From positions 1 to 41,067 of the forward strand of contig JAISXF010000077.1 of NCBI GenBank assembly GCA_031270845.1: a stretch of 41,067 nt of DNA, given 5' to 3'. The stretch comes from Prevotellaceae bacterium (GTDB lineage: Bacteria; Bacteroidota; Bacteroidia; Bacteroidales; UBA932). Made by a program: the position numbers and the translations under genes. Under the pieces are notes generated by a model, which saw only the letters and a program-made list of their open reading frames with translations, was not told where the DNA came from and did no database searches. This document shows, in pieces, positions 4,992-35,532 of the stretch; the stretch's first letter is position 1, and the number at the start of each line of letters is the position of its first letter.

Positions 4992-9257
<4,266 letters not shown>

Positions 9258-21527: not shown

Positions 21528-21569
21528 AAAACGTAAAACGTAATGCGTAAAACGTAATGCGTAATTAAT
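21528..21569. repeat. Heptad repeat AAAACGT/AATGCGT overlapping the LRR gene stop
   Basis: Alternating 7-bp units in order: AAAACGT, AAAACGT, AATGCGT, AAAACGT, AATGCGT, AATTAAT. The last unit contains the minus-strand stop codon of the LRR gene (21565-21567). Confidence 0.88.
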
Positions 21570-23874
21570 TACATAGTACTTTATTTACAGTCCAGCCATT
21601 GCCTTCGGCGATAGCTGTAGTGCAGCCGGAGGTAGCGGAGCCGGGGTTGCCATAGCCGGAGGAACCCAACTTCGGGTTGTAGCAGATATAAACCGTTTTT
21701 GTGGCGTCGGGGATGGAGATGTCGTGCAGGGTCCCGAATAAAGCATTGAGCGCCGCGACGGTAAAGAGGTTGGATTGTACCTGCAGGGTGACTAACGCGG
21801 GATTATTGCTTACGGACAATGAGGTCAAATTATTACCGTAACAATGCAAATAGACTAGCGCGTCATTATTGCTTACGTCTAATGAGGCCAATGAATTAGA
21901 GGAACAATCCAAACTGGTTAGCGCGGTATTATTGCTTACGTCTAATGTGTCCAATTGATTATTGTTACACCGCAAAGCCGTTAGCGCGGTATTACTGCTT
22001 ACGTCTAATGTGCCCAATGGATTATGGTCACAGAGCAGGGTTTTTAGCGCGGTATTAGCGTTCACGTTCAATGCCGTCAATGAATTGACGCTGCAATCCA
22101 AAAGAGTCGCTGCGGAATTATTGCTTACGTTTAATGAGAGCAAGTTATTGTTGCTACACTGCAAATTAGTTAGCGCGGTATTCTGACTTACGTCCAATTC
22201 GGTCAGTTGATTGCTGAAACAACCCAAAAACGTTAGCGCGGAGCAGTGCGTTACGTCTAACGCCGTTAATTTACTATTGATACCGTACAAATAGTTAATG
22301 GCCGTTGCCTGCGCGGTAATGGTATGCGAGCCGCCAGGATAGAAGTGCGTTTTCATGTTTGCGTCGGTATAGGTGTTTGCATCACCGTCGCCCCAGTCAA
22401 TGTACATGGTGCCGGTGAAGCTCATGTTCAAAGATATGCTGCCGGTGCTGGTGGAGGCCATGCTGAGAAACTCTCCGGCAACGGTAATGACGCCCTGCGT
22501 GGTGGTCGTGCCGCAGTTACCGGTGGCGGTTACAGTATAGGAATGTGCGCCAATGGTGGCCGAAGCGGCGGCTGTGCCGGTAATCTCTACGTTCGGGGCA
22601 TTCCAGGTATAGCCCAGGCCGGCGGGCAGGCCGGTAACGGTAACGGCGGTGGCATCGGTTGTGCCGTAAGTAATGATGCTGGTTAGCGACTGCCCTAACG
22701 ATATTGTCTGGACATCGGTTCCCTGCGCAGACAGTAAAGCCACAACCGGCGCAATCGTAGCGCCGATGGTAACGCACGTATCGGCGTAGCAACCGAAGGC
22801 ATTCCACGCCCGCACGCAGACGGTTACGCTGCCCGATTCGGGCATCCGTACCGTGAAGGTGCTGTCGCCGGAAGGCGTGCAGTATTCCACCGTTGGAAAT
22901 TCGCAATCAACTTCCGTCGGCGTGTCGTTCCCCGTTAAATACGGATTATGCGAAGAACCGGTAACCGTCTGCGTAAAGCAGTATGAGCTGCCGCTGCCGG
23001 CGGAGGCGGTAAGAATAAAGGTGCTGTCGGCGCAGTAGGTCGCCGGCGGGCTGATAAACACCGGCACGGGCGGCGGCACCACCGTAACCGTAACAGGCGC
23101 GCCGGTGGCGGTGCAGCCGGCGGCGTTCATTATATCTATAGTATAACCGGTAGTCGCCGTTGGCGAGAAGGTCGCGGAGTTCGCCGTTATCCACGTGGCG
23201 CCGTTGTCGAAACTGTAGGAGGCGGCGCCGGCGGTGGCGGTGAGCGTCGTCGTATCGCCGGCACAGATACTGTCAGGCGCGGCGGTAAGTATCGGCGCGG
23301 TGGGCGGCGGCGGAATTAACCCCGGACAGCCCGTCGCGTCGGTGAGGGCCGTGATGCAGCCCGTATAGCGCCGGGTGGGTTCGGTAATGGAGCCGTTAAT
23401 CTCAATGGGCGGCGTGCCGTGCAACTCGTAGAACCCGGCGCCGAGGGTGGCGTTGGGCGGGTAGTCGGAGACGTAAGCGCACCAGTTGAATTTGGTACCG
23501 GTCAGGTCGCTGCTGAGCGTAACGGTGAGCGTCGAGCTGAAGGGTACAGGGCCGGCGTGGCCGTCAAGGTAAAAGCCGCGCCCGTTGAGCGTACCGGGGA
23601 TAACCGTCCCTGCGCCGGCATCGACAACAGCGGCGGTAATCGTGGCCGGCGCCCAGGAGCCCAGCGTCCCGACGGGCTGGTAATCGACGAAGACCCATAC
23701 CGTATCGCGATGGCGGGGCGGCGTCGGGGCGGTGTTCCAGAAGACCTCGAAGGTAACGGTGGGCGGCGTGGCCGCGTAGTCGGCGCCGAGCTGGTTGATT
23801 TCAGCGACGCGCGACTGCCCGAAGGCTGGGGAGAGGGAGAGCGATAAGATTGCAATTAAAAAGCGATGTTTCAT
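21565..23874 (-). CDS. Secreted cysteine-ladder leucine-rich-repeat protein
   Basis: A 769-residue exported protein with a signal peptide at about 1-19. The N-terminal part (about 20-185) looks like an all-beta domain I cannot name. It is followed by a Pro-rich linker (PGLIPPPPTAP) and Ig/PKD-like modules to about 535, including a WGDGDA motif typical of PKD folds. Eight 21-residue leucine-rich repeats (536-703; DNA 21766-22269) have the pattern LxxLDVSxNxxLTxLxCxxN. Seven of the eight carry a cysteine at the same position. This cysteine ladder resembles the repeats of Listeria internalin J, a surface adhesin family. A 66-residue cap ends the protein. No type IX secretion C-terminal domain is evident. 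It lies 8 nt after a small reading frame in the leader (23882-24235) and is probably transcribed from the promoter at 24259-24266. A role in surface binding is an inference. Confidence 0.85.
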   Translation of the reverse strand: MKHRFLIAILSLSLSPAFGQSRVAEINQLGADYAATPPTVTFEVFWNTAPTPPRHRDTVWVFVDYQPVGTLGSWAPATITAAVVDAGAGTVIPGTLNGRGFYLDGHAGPVPFSSTLTVTLSSDLTGTKFNWCAYVSDYPPNATLGAGFYELHGTPPIEINGSITEPTRRYTGCITALTDATGCPGLIPPPPTAPILTAAPDSICAGDTTTLTATAGAASYSFDNGATWITANSATFSPTATTGYTIDIMNAAGCTATGAPVTVTVVPPPVPVFISPPATYCADSTFILTASAGSGSSYCFTQTVTGSSHNPYLTGNDTPTEVDCEFPTVEYCTPSGDSTFTVRMPESGSVTVCVRAWNAFGCYADTCVTIGATIAPVVALLSAQGTDVQTISLGQSLTSIITYGTTDATAVTVTGLPAGLGYTWNAPNVEITGTAAASATIGAHSYTVTATGNCGTTTTQGVITVAGEFLSMASTSTGSISLNMSFTGTMYIDWGDGDANTYTDANMKTHFYPGGSHTITAQATAINYLYGINSKLTALDVTHCSALTFLGCFSNQLTELDVSQNTALTNLQCSNNNLLSLNVSNNSAATLLDCSVNSLTALNVNANTALKTLLCDHNPLGTLDVSSNTALTALRCNNNQLDTLDVSNNTALTSLDCSSNSLASLDVSNNDALVYLHCYGNNLTSLSVSNNPALVTLQVQSNLFTVAALNALFGTLHDISIPDATKTVYICYNPKLGSSGYGNPGSATSGCTTAIAEGNGWTVNKVLCN

Positions 23875-23881
23875 AACGATA

Positions 23882-24235
23882 TTAATTTAAATGATTTTTA
23901 CATGATTTTTTGTTCCCGCAGGTTGCGGGGAAAGAAAAAACGTTTTTTTCCGTCCCAGCCGGGCTGGCGAAAGAAAAAACGTTTTTTTTTCGTCCCAGCC
24001 GGGCTGGCGAAAGAAAAAAACGTTTTTTTTCGTCCCAGCCGGGCTGGCGAAAGAAAAAAACAGTTTTTTTTCGTCCCAGCCGGGCTGGGGAAAGAAAAAC
24101 CGTGGTTTTTGTATTTAAGAAATAATTGTGCTGTGCTGTGCTAAATGCGTCAGCGCAGCGCACAGCTGCGGGTTTTTCCGGTATAAATCCGGGGGCTCCG
24201 GCATTTTTTATCAGTAATTTATTAACAGCAGACAT
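23882..24235 (-). CDS. Small leader reading frame A (conserved N-terminus, repeat-encoded C-terminus)
   Basis: A 117-codon frame starting 23 nt after a perfect -7 box and ending 8 nt before the LRR gene. Codons 1-33 (contains LIKNAG and FIPEKP and CADAFST) align without gaps to the small frame at 30432-30569, with 22 of 33 residues identical. From about codon 45 the frame runs through the roughly 40-bp tandem array. Because 40 is not a multiple of 3, each unit is read in a different frame, giving alternating segments such as SPARLGRKK and ASPAGTEK. I judge the first 45 codons as possibly a real peptide and the rest as frame-open repeat. It could instead be a non-coding leader RNA. No function is known. 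Confidence 0.35.
   Translation of the reverse strand: MSAVNKLLIKNAGAPGFIPEKPAAVRCADAFSTAQHNYFLNTKTTVFLSPARLGRKKTVFFFRQPGWDEKKRFFLSPARLGRKKNVFSFASPAGTEKNVFSFPATCGNKKSCKNHLN
23912..24110. repeat. About 40-bp tandem array 3 in the LRR gene leader
   Basis: Five units at spacings of 40, 40, 40 and 41 bp; the first (23912) and last are degenerate. The three central units contain the inverted repeat CCAGCC-G-GGCTGG. The first has AAAAAACGTTTTTT, with small variation in A/T-tract length in the next ones. If the promoter at 24259 drives the LRR gene, the array is transcribed in its 5' leader and would form GC stems separated by A/U tracts. Confidence 0.93.
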
Positions 24236-24258: not shown

Positions 24259-24266
24259 CAAAGATA
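24259..24266 (-). promoter_or_regulatory. -7 box TATCTTTG of leader module A / LRR gene
   Basis: A perfect TAnnTTTG match on the minus strand, followed by CA as in copy B. It lies about 80 bp beyond the stop codon of the upstream regulator gene. The predicted start is near 24252; the leader to the LRR start would be about 380 nt. Confidence 0.7.
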
Positions 24267-29895: not shown

Positions 29896-29958
29896 ATGAA
29901 GTATGAAGTATGAAGTATGAAGTATGAACTATGAACGATGAACTATGAACTATGAACC
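29896..29958. repeat. Heptad repeat ATGAAGT/ATGAACT x9
   Basis: Nine 7-bp units: four ATGAAGT, then ATGAACT, ATGAACG, ATGAACT, ATGAACT and ATGAACC. Located 60 bp after the lipid kinase stop. No coding potential of note. Confidence 0.93.
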
Positions 29959-30006
29959 GGCATCGGGATTATGTTAGGCGGTTAAGCGGAACGGCCGGGA
30001 GATTTT

Positions 30007-30321
30007 TCGCCATAGGTAGAAAGTGTCTCCGCAATGCTGAGAAATTTTTCGCTGAGAAATTTTTTTCCATAGGGGGAAAGTCGTTTGACAATGTCGAGAG
30101 ACTTTCCCCCATAGGGGGAAAGTCGTTTGACAATGTCGAGAGACTTTCCCCCATAGGGAGAAAGTCGTTTGACAATGTCGAGAGACTTTCCCCCATAGGG
30201 AGAAAGTCGTTTGACGATGTCGAGAGACTTTCCCCCTATGGAAAAAAAGTTGCTCGACGTCGTGGAGAGACTTTCTACCATATGCAAAAAGTTGCTCGAC
30301 GACGTGGAGAGACTTTCCCCG
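30007..30321. repeat. 42-bp palindromic tandem array 4
   Basis: About seven units. AGT reference points at 30079, 30121, 30163, 30205, 30248 and 30290 give spacings of 42, 42, 42, 43 and 42. A degenerate first unit at 30022 is displaced by an extra 15-bp duplication (GCTGAGAAATTTTT repeated). Inner units contain CCCCC-ATA-GGGGG and long inverted arms GGGGGAAAGTC/GACTTTCCCCC. The central units are nearly identical, and the ends diverge. Because 42 is a multiple of 3 the array is open in several frames, giving false reading frames on both strands. Function unknown. Confidence 0.95.
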
Positions 30322-30330
30322 AATAACGAG

Positions 30331-30393
30331 TTCATCGTTCATCGCTCATCGTTATATTCGTAATTCGTAATTCGTAATTCGTAATTCGTAATT
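30331..30393. repeat. Heptad repeats TTCATCG x3 and CGTAATT x5
   Basis: Three TTCATCG-type units (30331-30351), a transition, then five identical CGTAATT units (30359-30393). The array ends 7 bp before the -7 box at 30401, so the expected -33 region lies within it, as at the helicase promoter. Confidence 0.92.
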
Positions 30394-30400
30394 TATTTAC

Positions 30401-30408
30401 TATCTTTG
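30401..30408 (+). promoter_or_regulatory. -7 box TATCTTTG of leader module B / SusC operon
   Basis: A perfect TAnnTTTG match followed by CA, identical to copy A at 24259-24266. The predicted start is near 30415, giving a leader of about 370 nt before SusC. Confidence 0.75.
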
Positions 30409-30431: not shown

Positions 30432-30569
30432 ATGACAAATGTTCATAACTTTCTAATAAAAAGTGCCGGAAACCCCCGCTTTATACCGGAAAAACCCGTA
30501 GCTTTGTGCTGCGCTGACGCATTCAGCACAGGCGCACAGGCGCACAGGCGCACAGGCGCACAGGCGTAA
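30432..30569 (+). CDS. Small leader reading frame B (45 codons)
   Basis: Begins 23 nt after the -7 box, the same distance as in copy A. Its first 33 codons align without gaps to frame A (22 of 33 identical residues, with several conservative changes such as S/T, L/F, A/V, V/L). Shared elements include LIK-AG, FIPEKP and CADAFST. Codons 34 onward are encoded by the octamer repeat and end in TAA after the last unit. Two codon differences are silent and eleven change the residue, so selection on a peptide is not clear. The reading frame after the repeat differs between the copies. It may be a real peptide, a leader peptide, or chance openness in a conserved RNA. Confidence 0.35.
   Translation: MTNVHNFLIKSAGNPRFIPEKPVALCCADAFSTGAQAHRRTGAQA
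30527..30566. repeat. Octanucleotide tandem repeat CACAGGCG x5
   Basis: Five perfect 8-bp units inside small frame B. Copy A has instead three AGCAC-type 5-bp units at the matching place. Unit gain or loss would shift the frame. Confidence 0.93.
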
Positions 30570-30783
30570 TTATTTCTTAAATCCAAACAATCTTACTGCA
30601 TCCCCGCAGGGCATCCGCTCTTGTCGGGGTTTTGTATGCCTGCCCCGCGCGGGCGCGCCAATACATCTTTTCATAACAGGCAACCGGCGTGTTCTGCATC
30701 GCATCAGCGGCGCCCACACGTCTGCTGCCTGCCTTTTTTTATACAGTTAACCTTTATTTTATTTACCTTAAAAAAACAATCTA

Positions 30784-33700
30784 ATGATGCATGTACTTAA
30801 GAAAACAAACAGACAGCGGTTACTGCCGCTGCTTTTAGTCGGTTCGATGCTTTGTCTGTTCCCTGCGGGCGCGCTGACGGCGCAGCAGGTAACGGTTGCG
30901 GGTCGCGTTACCGACGCCGCGGGCGAGGCGTTACCGTTCGTCAATGTGGTCGTCAAAGGCGCGACACAGGCCGTTCTCACCAACGAGAACGGCGACTACT
31001 CAATCCACGTGCCGGGGCCGGAAACAGTCCTGCAATTCTCTTTTGTGGGCTATGTTACGCAGGAGCTGCCGGTGGGCGACCGGCGAACGATTAACATCGT
31101 CCTCGAAGAGGAGGTCGGGTTGCTCGACGAGATTATCGTCGTCGCCTACGGTACCCAGAAGAAGAGTTCGGTAACGGGGTCGATTGCGACCGTCAAATCC
31201 GAAGCGCTGGCGACGGTAACGGCGCCCAACGTGCAGTCGATGCTGCAGGGGAAAGTCGCCGGGATGCAGGTGCTCAACACGTCGGGGCGCCCGGGCGATG
31301 CGCCGGTGATACGTATCCGCGGCAAAAGCTCGCTCGGCTCCGATGCTTCCATCGAGCCGCTCTGGGTGGTCGATGGCGTGATTATGAACATGAGTATGCA
31401 GCTCAATCCGAATGATATTGATAACATCAGTATTTTGAAAGATGCGACGGCCACGGCGCTCTACGGGTCGCGGGCGACGAATGGCGTGATACTCGTTACC
31501 ACAAAAGGCGGCAAGGCCGGCGATAACCGTATCGAAGCGAGCGCCAAATTCGGCATCGCGACGCAGCATCTCGGAAAATTTAAGCTGATGAACGCCGCCG
31601 AACTCTATGACTATTCGATAGCCATGCAGGGCGCTACCGAGAGCTACCCCTGGCTGCGCGATAAGGACGCCCTGCTCGCGCATGATACCGACTGGTTCGA
31701 TACGGCCACGCAGACCGGCACGTCGCACAACTATACCGTTTCGCACACGCTCGGTACCGAAGGGATGCGGAACTTCCTCTCGGCCGATATGTACCGCGAA
31801 ACAGGCACCGTGCGCGGGTTCACCTACGAACGGTTCAGTCTGCGCGATAATGTTGATGTTAAAGTCAACAACCGCCTCACCCTGCACGGTAAGTTTGCCG
31901 GCAGCTTCCGCCATGACGACAACCGCCAGCACAGCCTCTACAGCGCCATGACATACCTCCCCTGGGATTATCCCTATAATCCGGACGGCACCGTGCGTAC
32001 CGGCAAGGAGAACGGTATCAGTACGGCCGAAGACTGGCACGGCCGCGACGAAAGCAACTACCTTTACAATAATCAGTACGACTACGAAAAGAGCAAAACC
32101 GTCAATGTGTCGGGGACGCTGGGCTTCGACTGGAAAATAACCGACTGGCTCACCTTCGAGTCGAACAATAACATTGAGTTCCGCTTCCGCCGCCATACGC
32201 TTTATTCCGACCCGCGCTCGATAGGCTCGGAAGGTACGGGCGGCACCATCGGCAACCGAACCTACTTAGCCACGACACGGTATGCCAACCAGCTTATCCG
32301 TTTCGGAAAAATATTCGATGGCCTTCATGCCGTCAATGCCTTCCTCGGCTATGAGTTTAACGATTACCTGTACGAAGATACCGACGCCTCGGGACAGTCA
32401 ATACCGGCCGGCGGCGAAGTGCTTAACGTGAGCGCCACGCCACTGGCTACAAAAGGCACAAAGTACGGAAACGCCATGCAGTCGTATTACTTTAACGCCA
32501 ATTACACGTATGATGATAAATATAATGCGCAGTTCTCGTTCCGTCGCGACGGCTCGTCGAAATTCGGCCGCGAGAAACGCTACGGGAACTTCTGGACGGC
32601 TGGCGCCGCATGGTCGGTCGATAAGGAAGCATTTATGAAGAATGTGCCGGCGATCGACTTCCTCAAACTCCGCGTGAGCTACGGGATGATTGGGAACTCG
32701 TCGAGCCTGGGCAATTATTCGTACCTGAGCGTATATGGCCTCACGACACACTATGCCGGTACTCCGGCCTCGTTCCCCAATGTGCTCGGCAACCCCGACC
32801 TGTCGTGGGAAACCTGCTACGAAACCAATATCGCTATCGACACCCGCATCCTGAACCGCTTTAACCTGACCGTCGATTACTATATCAAGAATACTTCGGG
32901 GCTGATTTATTCCCGCAAGCTCAGCTCGCTGACCGGCTATAACAGCCGGTACGAAAACATCGGAGCGGTACGGAATAACGGCATCGAAATCACCTTCGAC
33001 GCCGACATCATCCACCGCGCAGGGTGGCTCTGGAGGGCCGGTTTTAATGTCGGATATAATAAAAATAAGATTACCGAATTAGCCAACAACAATGCCGACC
33101 AGCTGCCCAGCGACACAAGTAACAAACTGTTCCGCGTCGGCGAAGACCGCGACACCTTCTACCTGCCCGAGTGGGCTGGCGTGGATGTCTATACGGGCGC
33201 CCCGCTGTGGTATGCCTACGACGAAAACGGCGCCCGGCGGATTGTTACCGACGTCGCCCAGGCCTCGCGGGTGCTGGCCGGCTCGTCGAACCCGAACTTC
33301 TTCGGCGGCATCCAAACCAGCCTCTCGTACCGGGGAATTACCCTCTCGGCGACGGGGTCGTTCGTTACCGGAAACAAGATATACCACGCCGCCCGACAAT
33401 TCTATGATAACGACGGCGCCTACCCGACCTACAACGGCATGAGCCTCTCGTCGAACAAAAGCTGGGTGCGCTGGGAACGCCCCGGCGACATCGCCACCCA
33501 CCCCCAGGCCATCTCGGGCGGCAATAACCTCTCGAACGAGCCTTCGACACGCTTCCTCGAAGACGGCAGCTATTTCCGGCTCACCAATGTGTCGCTCTCG
33601 TACGACATCCCCGCCGGCCTGCTTAAGAAAATAGGACTCCGGTACGCGCAGCTTTACGTCAGCGGCGAGAACCTCTTTACGCTGACAAAATTCTCGGGCG

Positions 33701-33801
33701 CCGACGTCGAAGTAGGCGCCGGAAATTCGAACGGTAACTACAACACCGACCTCTATCCGCTGGTGCGCAGGGTATCGGTAGGCCTTAATTTTAATTTCTA
33801 A
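30784..33801 (+). CDS. SusC/RagA-family TonB-linked outer-membrane transporter
   Basis: A 1005-residue outer-membrane protein. In order: a signal peptide (about 1-33), a carboxypeptidase-regulatory-like domain (about 36-107, VTVAGRVTDAAGEALPFVNV) and a TonB-box-like segment (113-134, LLDEIIVVAYGTQKKSSVTG). The plug follows (about 135-245, with WVVDG and GVILVTTKGG), then a beta-barrel to the terminal aromatic residue (VGLNFNF). It would import oligosaccharides or other large nutrients with energy from TonB. It is followed 18 bp later by SusD and two lipoprotein genes in one operon. ATG at 30787 is an alternative start. The long leader upstream contains module B. The roughly 215 bp between that module and the start hold no clear gene; a weak 5-bp CCCCG/CGGGG stem followed by TTTT lies at 30602-30633. 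Confidence 0.95.
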   Translation: MMHVLKKTNRQRLLPLLLVGSMLCLFPAGALTAQQVTVAGRVTDAAGEALPFVNVVVKGATQAVLTNENGDYSIHVPGPETVLQFSFVGYVTQELPVGDRRTINIVLEEEVGLLDEIIVVAYGTQKKSSVTGSIATVKSEALATVTAPNVQSMLQGKVAGMQVLNTSGRPGDAPVIRIRGKSSLGSDASIEPLWVVDGVIMNMSMQLNPNDIDNISILKDATATALYGSRATNGVILVTTKGGKAGDNRIEASAKFGIATQHLGKFKLMNAAELYDYSIAMQGATESYPWLRDKDALLAHDTDWFDTATQTGTSHNYTVSHTLGTEGMRNFLSADMYRETGTVRGFTYERFSLRDNVDVKVNNRLTLHGKFAGSFRHDDNRQHSLYSAMTYLPWDYPYNPDGTVRTGKENGISTAEDWHGRDESNYLYNNQYDYEKSKTVNVSGTLGFDWKITDWLTFESNNNIEFRFRRHTLYSDPRSIGSEGTGGTIGNRTYLATTRYANQLIRFGKIFDGLHAVNAFLGYEFNDYLYEDTDASGQSIPAGGEVLNVSATPLATKGTKYGNAMQSYYFNANYTYDDKYNAQFSFRRDGSSKFGREKRYGNFWTAGAAWSVDKEAFMKNVPAIDFLKLRVSYGMIGNSSSLGNYSYLSVYGLTTHYAGTPASFPNVLGNPDLSWETCYETNIAIDTRILNRFNLTVDYYIKNTSGLIYSRKLSSLTGYNSRYENIGAVRNNGIEITFDADIIHRAGWLWRAGFNVGYNKNKITELANNNADQLPSDTSNKLFRVGEDRDTFYLPEWAGVDVYTGAPLWYAYDENGARRIVTDVAQASRVLAGSSNPNFFGGIQTSLSYRGITLSATGSFVTGNKIYHAARQFYDNDGAYPTYNGMSLSSNKSWVRWERPGDIATHPQAISGGNNLSNEPSTRFLEDGSYFRLTNVSLSYDIPAGLLKKIGLRYAQLYVSGENLFTLTKFSGADVEVGAGNSNGNYNTDLYPLVRRVSVGLNFNF

Positions 33802-33819
33802 TCATAATAAATAACGATA

Positions 33820-35532
33820 ATGAAAACAATCAAAATACATCTGCTACAAATACTGCTATGCGTCGCCTGTACCCTGCTGATGAGCGACTGCGACCTCGAG
33901 CGGCTGCCCTACGACGCCATGGTCAACGAAGGCATCAACGCCGGCAGCGCCGAATCAATCACGCTTGGCACCTACGCCAAACTGAAAGAAGAATACTATT
34001 ATAAAACACTCCACCAGGTGGGCGAATACGGCGGCGATAACATATCACTGAGCGGCACCACCTCCGACCAGCTGTTTAACTTCTATCGCTATACACGTGT
34101 AACAAACAGTTATTATACGGCGCGCGTATGGCTCTTTACCTATCAGATGGTGGGCAATATTAATTCGTTGCTGCCGGCGCTCGAAGAGTACGACCCGCCG
34201 GTGGACGAACGGGAGTCAATCGACCACCTGAAAGGGGAAAACCTGCTGCTGCGGGCGTTCCTTTATTTCAACTGCTGTAACGTCTTCGGCCGTCCCTACC
34301 TCGATGCCGCCGGCGCGGAGAACAACCCGGGCATTCCGTTGAAGACGGTCTCCGATATCAACTACTTCCCCCCGCGTGCATCGGTTAAGGACGTCTATGA
34401 ACAAATCATTGAAGACGCCACGCGCGCCGCCGCCCTGATGAAACGCTCGCCGGGGACAACCCCGAAAAACAACAGCTATGTGTCGCAGGAAGTGGCATGG
34501 GCTTTCCTTTCCCGTGTATATCTTTATATGGGCGCGTATGAAAAGGCGGAAGCTTACGCCGACTCGGTGATCAACGCCGGCCGCTATTCCCTGCTCGAAG
34601 ACGACAGCTATGCGAAATACCCCCAGCACGCCCCCGAAAGCAATACGGAATCGATTTGGGTAATCCGAATGTTGAAGGATGTGGACTTTGAAGCCTATTA
34701 CATGGACTGGTATTCGGTAGGCAGCCTCTATGCCACGCTCGACGAAATTGGATGGGGCGAAATGTATCCCTCCGAATCCTACCTCGCCCTGCTCCGCGAG
34801 AACCCCGAAGACCTGCGCTTCAAGTTTATCGCCGACCAGTACGAGGCAACCAACAGCCTGTGGATGATTTATACCGTCGGCAACGAAGCCAACAAAACAT
34901 GGACATACGCCACCCAGACAGTCGTCCAGGAAGGCGACGACTACCGGATTACAACCAACGCCAACCTCTACACCAGTCCGCTGGTGCAGAAGGAAACAAT
35001 CGACGGGAAAACGCAGTACTACGTGGTTACGGTGGCGGGCAGTGTTCGCTACAATGTACATATCGAACGGGCGCTGCAGGCACGCAACGGCTACCCGAAA
35101 CGGTTTATCCTCAAATGTTCCTACCAGGAGCAGCAGTCGCAGCTTTACTCGCCGGTGCTGTTCCGCCTCGCCGAGATATACCTCACCCGCGCCGAAAGCC
35201 GTTTCTATCAGAACGACATCGCCGGTGCCATCGAAGACATGAATGTCATCCGCCGTCGGGCGAAAATCCCCGAACGCCAGTACGCCGATGCCGGCAGCGA
35301 CGCCGATGTCCTCGAATGGATTCTCAACGAACGCCGCCTCGAGCTGGCGTGGGAAGCGCAGCGCAAGTATGATATTTTCCGCAAGCAACAAACGCTCGAC
35401 CGCCGCTACCCCGGATCGCACCTCGCGTCGGCGCTGCCGATAGAAATCAGACCCGACGACGACCGGATTGTCGAATATATCCCTGTGAGCGAAATCGACG
35501 CCTACCCGGGCGACTTGCAGCAAAACCCCTAA
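33820..35532 (+). CDS. SusD/RagB-family surface lipoprotein
   Basis: A 570-residue nutrient-binding lipoprotein that forms the lid of the SusC transporter. The lipidated cysteine is probably Cys24 in LLMSDCDLERLP; Asp just before Cys is unusual for a lipobox, though the CDLxxxP context is typical of SusD. The family's helical TPR-like scaffold is present (e.g. RAFLYFNCCNVFGRPY, RLAEIYLTRAES), with the C-terminal region containing ILNERRLELAWEAQRKYD. Located directly after SusC in the same operon. Confidence 0.95.
   Translation: MKTIKIHLLQILLCVACTLLMSDCDLERLPYDAMVNEGINAGSAESITLGTYAKLKEEYYYKTLHQVGEYGGDNISLSGTTSDQLFNFYRYTRVTNSYYTARVWLFTYQMVGNINSLLPALEEYDPPVDERESIDHLKGENLLLRAFLYFNCCNVFGRPYLDAAGAENNPGIPLKTVSDINYFPPRASVKDVYEQIIEDATRAAALMKRSPGTTPKNNSYVSQEVAWAFLSRVYLYMGAYEKAEAYADSVINAGRYSLLEDDSYAKYPQHAPESNTESIWVIRMLKDVDFEAYYMDWYSVGSLYATLDEIGWGEMYPSESYLALLRENPEDLRFKFIADQYEATNSLWMIYTVGNEANKTWTYATQTVVQEGDDYRITTNANLYTSPLVQKETIDGKTQYYVVTVAGSVRYNVHIERALQARNGYPKRFILKCSYQEQQSQLYSPVLFRLAEIYLTRAESRFYQNDIAGAIEDMNVIRRRAKIPERQYADAGSDADVLEWILNERRLELAWEAQRKYDIFRKQQTLDRRYPGSHLASALPIEIRPDDDRIVEYIPVSEIDAYPGDLQQNP

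Follow-up and report, generated by a model that had tools for sequence, protein, structure and literature searches.

Two short open reading frames in the window (the whole stretch of 41,067 nucleotides analyzed here), frames A and B, belong to a repeated leader module that we consider, with a probability of roughly 0.55, to be a phase-variable transcription attenuator. Its mechanism would be of the pil1/pil3 type known from streptococcal pilus loci, in the form of a multi-locus Bacteroidota variant. About 41 copies of the module, A and B included, occur in nine genomes, with about 10 loci per genome. In order, the module comprises a TAnnTTTG promoter-like box, an ATG or GTG codon, an ungapped block of 22 codons, a tandem tract, a hairpin with a T-run and, usually, a gene on the same strand.

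Leader modules A and B in the window

The leader ORF of module B (45 aa) lies on the forward strand at 30432-30569. It starts at an ATG (30432) and, in its present phase, ends at a TAA (30567-30569) directly past the tandem tract. The leader ORF of module A (117 aa) lies on the reverse strand at 23882-24235; it runs leftwards from an ATG at 24235 to a stop at 23882 and passes the hairpins in its present phase. When we compared the translations, the ungapped alignment of the first 33 codons given in the original prediction was confirmed, with 22/33 residues identical, as was its count of two silent codon differences (CTA/CTG and TTC/TTT). The likeness of A and B goes beyond chance: a BLASTN search of the window's genome (a 2.0 Mb draft in 116 contigs, of which the window is contig C42) yielded 12 matches with E ≤ 1.3e-4, some of which lie at the ends of contigs, where the repeat has interrupted assembly.

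Both modules are preceded by a putative promoter −7 box, P1, with the sequence TATCTTTG (30401-30408, forward strand, in module B; 24259-24266, reverse strand, in module A), which matches the Bacteroidota-type consensus TAnnTTTG (PMC7366714). Across copies, a putative P1 was present no more than 90 nt upstream in 31/40, against about 0.04 expected per copy. A generic scan of module B for sigma-70 promoters and terminators found nothing, which is due to the scan's loop limit and promoter model.

Downstream of module B are a gene for a SusC-like TonB-dependent receptor (30784-33801, forward strand; Pfam Plug and CarbopepD_reg_2) and, in the same apparent operon, a SusD-like gene (33820-35532, forward strand; Pfam SusD_RagB). 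Module A is followed by a gene for a 769-aa surface-type protein with leucine-rich repeats (21565-23874, reverse strand; Pfam LRR_4). The next gene on the same strand usually lies 100-350 nt past the core, and the genes found there over all copies encode SusC/SusD pairs, LRR and Ig-like surface proteins, DUF6261 and HU-like proteins, and an aminotransferase.

Distribution of the module

A profile of 24 residues of the block found about 43 places in nine genomes (E < 5e-4), about 41 of which could be read with enough sequence for block analysis. The positive genomes were the window's own, seven congeners and a single genome from a sister genus (G009); G007 had no match to this profile and was the sole negative among the nine genus genomes examined. 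One further weak match was found elsewhere (E 0.009). These bacteria are uncultured Bacteroidales, and the congeners of the window's genome are metagenome assemblies. The nucleotide core, allowing up to 3 mismatches, was absent outside the genus from 300 genomes of the family, and a search of genome and viral collections gave no match beyond the congeners. The sister genus was reached by the protein profile only.

Several contigs end within the leader core or tract (G000:C38, C67 and C56; G001:C57, C158, C184 and C203; G005:C71), so the drafts probably lack further copies or tails. At about position 7000 of G000:C83 (L047), a truncated or degenerate copy consists of the core alone, before an aminotransferase gene, with neither leader frame nor promoter. 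Another block copy (L178, G005:C36, 1184-1252) has neither tract nor hairpin, and its frame of 22-23 codons ends about 20 nt ahead of a lipoprotein-like gene.

A conserved and probably translated leader frame

The block (VHNFLIKSAGNPRFIPEKPVAL, 30441-30506 on the forward strand in module B) has no gaps within its 66 nt across copies. We tested 15 representatives less than 85% identical to one another against column permutation. Frame 0 contained no stop where about 20 were expected, and only 2 of 2000 permutations were as low. Differing codons had a mean BLOSUM62 score of 0.31, compared with −0.35 by permutation (28/2000 as high), and the other five frames scored worse than frame 0. The later copies came from a protein profile search, which biases the sample towards open frames; an earlier test on the 23 copies known before that search had the same outcome (5 and 7 of 1000). 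In the sister genus, two copies have ATG as the codon preceding the block and five have GTG, and the distances from the ATG to the same core codon are 78, 81 or 84 nt, differing by multiples of 3 only. These results support a leader frame that is conserved and probably translated.

The exact peptide is another matter. Differences within the block are spread evenly over the three codon positions (849/751/795), the third being no more variable than the first, so what has been retained is a frame that stays open and roughly similar, and not the exact peptide. Pairwise dN/dS values lie around 1 and scatter from 0.27 to 3.6, and we dropped dN/dS as proof of selection on the peptide. The original prediction, which proposed that a conserved peptide may be encoded and at the same time doubted strong selection on it, is partly supported: a conserved frame is borne out, and so is the doubt. 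It overlooked the tandem tract and the terminator-like hairpin that lie further along. Copies with stops or frameshifts, which it had regarded as counting against a peptide, do exist (an in-frame TAG in G002 C80, a 5-nt frameshift in C32 and a core with no frame in C83), but they are rare among the roughly 41. Openness of the frame is kept more than the peptide. Since the frame runs into a frame-shifting tract and then a terminator-like hairpin, this suggests that translation itself, and not the peptide, is what matters. No leader peptide matched a Pfam family above the cut-off.

An inverted repeat, CCTTGC-nnn-GYAAGG, also lies within the ORF (block columns 34-48, for example in L179-L184) and is complete in 13/41 copies.

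Tandem tract, hairpins and reading phases

A tandem tract begins no more than 22 nt past the block. In module B it consists of 5.1 copies of the 8-nt unit GCACAGGC (30526-30566, forward strand), and in module A of 3.2 copies of the 5-nt unit AGCAC (24127-24142, reverse strand). Tracts were detected in 32 copies, all with a unit of 5, 7 or 8 nt and with up to 23 units; a few of them have fewer than three units, and several module copies have a short tract or none. The same place carries different motifs in different lineages: CAGCA, CGCACAG, GCACAGGC, CAGCGAAG and CACCGCAG in the genus, and CTCAA, CACCCAA and CACTCAA in the sister genus. With such units, the gain or loss of one shifts the frame. 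Three paralogs in G009 (C3, C141 and C28) have near-identical leaders and closely similar tails with about 2, 8 and 17 units, respectively; this is a comparison between paralogs, and draft assemblies may misstate the length of a tract.

Repeats with a 7-nt unit are also common elsewhere in these genomes, where they account for 71/112 of the tandem repeats outside leaders (ATTCGTA, ATGAAGT and ATGAACT types) and are intergenic. Unit length alone is thus a weak argument, and we abandoned indivisibility by 3 as proof of phase variation. Loci of such intergenic 7-nt repeats in the window include 29896-29960, 30356-30393, 18311 and many others. Upstream of module B, positions 29952-30326 hold an array of hairpin units of about 42 nt (GAGAGACTTTCCCCCATAGGG...), with several open frames on either strand; the start of this array (MNRHRDYVRRLSGTA) also occurs upstream of the copy on C74.

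Past the tract, most copies have a stop in one or two frames and then a hairpin with a T-run. In module B, folding predicts a terminator-like hairpin of −15.5 kcal/mol followed by TTTT (30602-30633, forward strand), and one of the three phases of its tail (30570-30750) runs through the hairpin without meeting a stop until 30748. Module A has an array of terminator-like hairpins with T-runs (23939-24103, reverse strand). Hairpins with T-runs, at −15 to −28 kcal/mol, separate tract and gene in most copies whose tail is complete (−28.3 in C2, −16.8 in G002 C136, −20 to −27 in the G009 copies); they are weak or absent in C14, C40, G006, G008, G001 and some others.

We followed all three frames after the tract in each copy. 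Both types of phase were present in 15/15 of the copies with a clear hairpin that were tested, at least one phase stopping before the hairpin and at least one passing it; G001 C244 has no open phase. Shuffled tails give both phases with a frequency of 0.45-0.88 per tail, so their presence is what the mechanism needs and is not proof of it. An open tail frame has a chance probability of 0.02-0.39, which is not individually significant in most copies, and the hairpin arrays lack stops. As proof of phase variation, an open tail frame and the occurrence of both phases were weak when set against shuffles. Of 18 copies, 15 are at present in the early-stop phase, with 10.3 expected (P = 0.015, related copies not being corrected for).

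Proposed mechanism

RNA polymerase would start at P1, and a ribosome would start at the ATG or GTG some 20-60 nt further on, translate the fixed 22-codon block and enter the tract, whose units are 5, 7 or 8 nt long. Slippage as the DNA is replicated would alter the number of units and with it the reading frame at the tract's exit. Most phases would then bring the ribosome to an immediate stop, the hairpin and T-run would form, and transcription would end ahead of the surface gene (off). Another phase would let the ribosome pass the hairpin towards the gene start, the hairpin would be blocked and the gene would be transcribed (on). The sequence itself shows the module and its copies, a coding-like frame, a tract that shifts the frame and differs in copy number, the hairpins, the phases and the genes downstream. 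That the promoter is active, the leader translated and the tract prone to slip within a population, and that termination and antitermination take place, we infer. Among 14 tails examined, none had an exact TAnnTTTG between tract and gene, which favours this mechanism.

Alternative explanations

The main rival places the function in the DNA of the core, as a second promoter ahead of the tract. An exact TAnnTTTG, P2, stands at the block end in 26/40 copies (TAGCTTTG at 30499-30506, forward strand, inside the module B ORF); its varying positions are the two n of the consensus, and a TTG lies 20 nt upstream of the P2-like box in 24/40. P2 may be a real promoter, which would put a start at the tract. 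Tract and hairpin would then belong to an untranslated leader and the open frame would be a by-product. However, the box is lost in 14/40 copies, yet only one copy has an in-frame stop, and a second promoter leaves unexplained the ungapped 30 nt upstream of it, the swap of start codons and P1. We regard it as unlikely. The CCTTGC-nnn-GYAAGG repeat overlaps the −33 position of the P2-like promoter. Rather unlikely, too, is that duplication and recombination have spread a repetitive leader together with its genes, with the tract being neutral slippage and the hairpins ordinary terminators or repeats. Intergenic 7-nt repeats and hairpin arrays are indeed abundant in the same genomes and several downstream genes are paralogs, but the open frame has been retained across two genera, different motifs have grown at one place into tracts much longer than other repeats, and the downstream genes are unrelated.

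A small protein that functions in trans and has a repetitive C-terminus would account for the conserved frame and for a present phase that often stops right past the tract. It fits poorly with the missing third-position excess, the varied motifs and lengths of the tract and the lack of a Pfam match, and we judge it quite improbable. Least probable of all, and very much so, is a structured cis-regulatory RNA with a hairpin in the core or block that works without translation: a core hairpin (TGTGCTG...CAGCACA) in the window's genome and the CCTTGC-nnn-GCAAGG stem of 13/41 copies speak for it, but neither stem is universal and the leader matched no Rfam family.

Comparison with known systems

In S. 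gallolyticus pil1, GCAGA repeats in a leader ORF shift the frame (Danne et al. 2014, PMC3894217). When the leader is longer, the ribosome opens a premature terminator and pil1 is on; pil3 is similar (PMC3894217). In that species the mechanism has been proven (PMC3894217). The module shares with these loci a frame-shifting tract in a short leader ORF (a pentanucleotide in Streptococcus gallolyticus), a common phase that stops before the terminator, other phases whose longer frame reaches it, and surface structure genes downstream. Its anatomy matches theirs in every point that sequence can show. In contrast to pil1/pil3, it occurs in a different phylum without Shine-Dalgarno starts, at about 10 loci per genome and with exchangeable 5-, 7- and 8-nt motifs; it adds a conserved N-terminal block and a second promoter-like box, it precedes SusC/SusD and LRR genes, and it is known from sequence alone. 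Our literature search found a repeat-in-leader attenuator described only for the two streptococcal pilus loci.

In leader-peptide attenuators of the trp and his type, a translated leader controls a terminator hairpin, as we propose here; however, we saw no run of regulatory codons, and the proposed variable is the repeat number rather than an amino acid. DNA inversion is the main known route of phase variation in Bacteroidota, and at Bacteroides surface loci recombinases turn invertible promoters on and off at random. The module would likewise switch Bacteroidota surface genes on and off at random, through a tandem tract instead of inversion by a recombinase. In Clostridioides difficile, the flagellar switch upstream of flgB undergoes inversion (PMC8890394). 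Like the module, that system places phase variation in the leader of surface genes, but it works by DNA inversion and not by the repeat slippage proposed here.

It is possible, and we suggest it only tentatively, that one modular leader switch has been copied before many unrelated surface loci of a genome and that each tract slips independently, so that a clonal population would hold many surface combinations without a recombinase. To find this anatomy in a second phylum, at about ten loci per genome and with other motifs, would point to independent evolution, and it makes the idea testable through repeat-number reporters. If the phase-variable attenuator is real, Bacteroidota would have a second and simpler route of phase variation, a repeat that slips within a translated leader and acts on SusC/SusD and adhesin-like genes.
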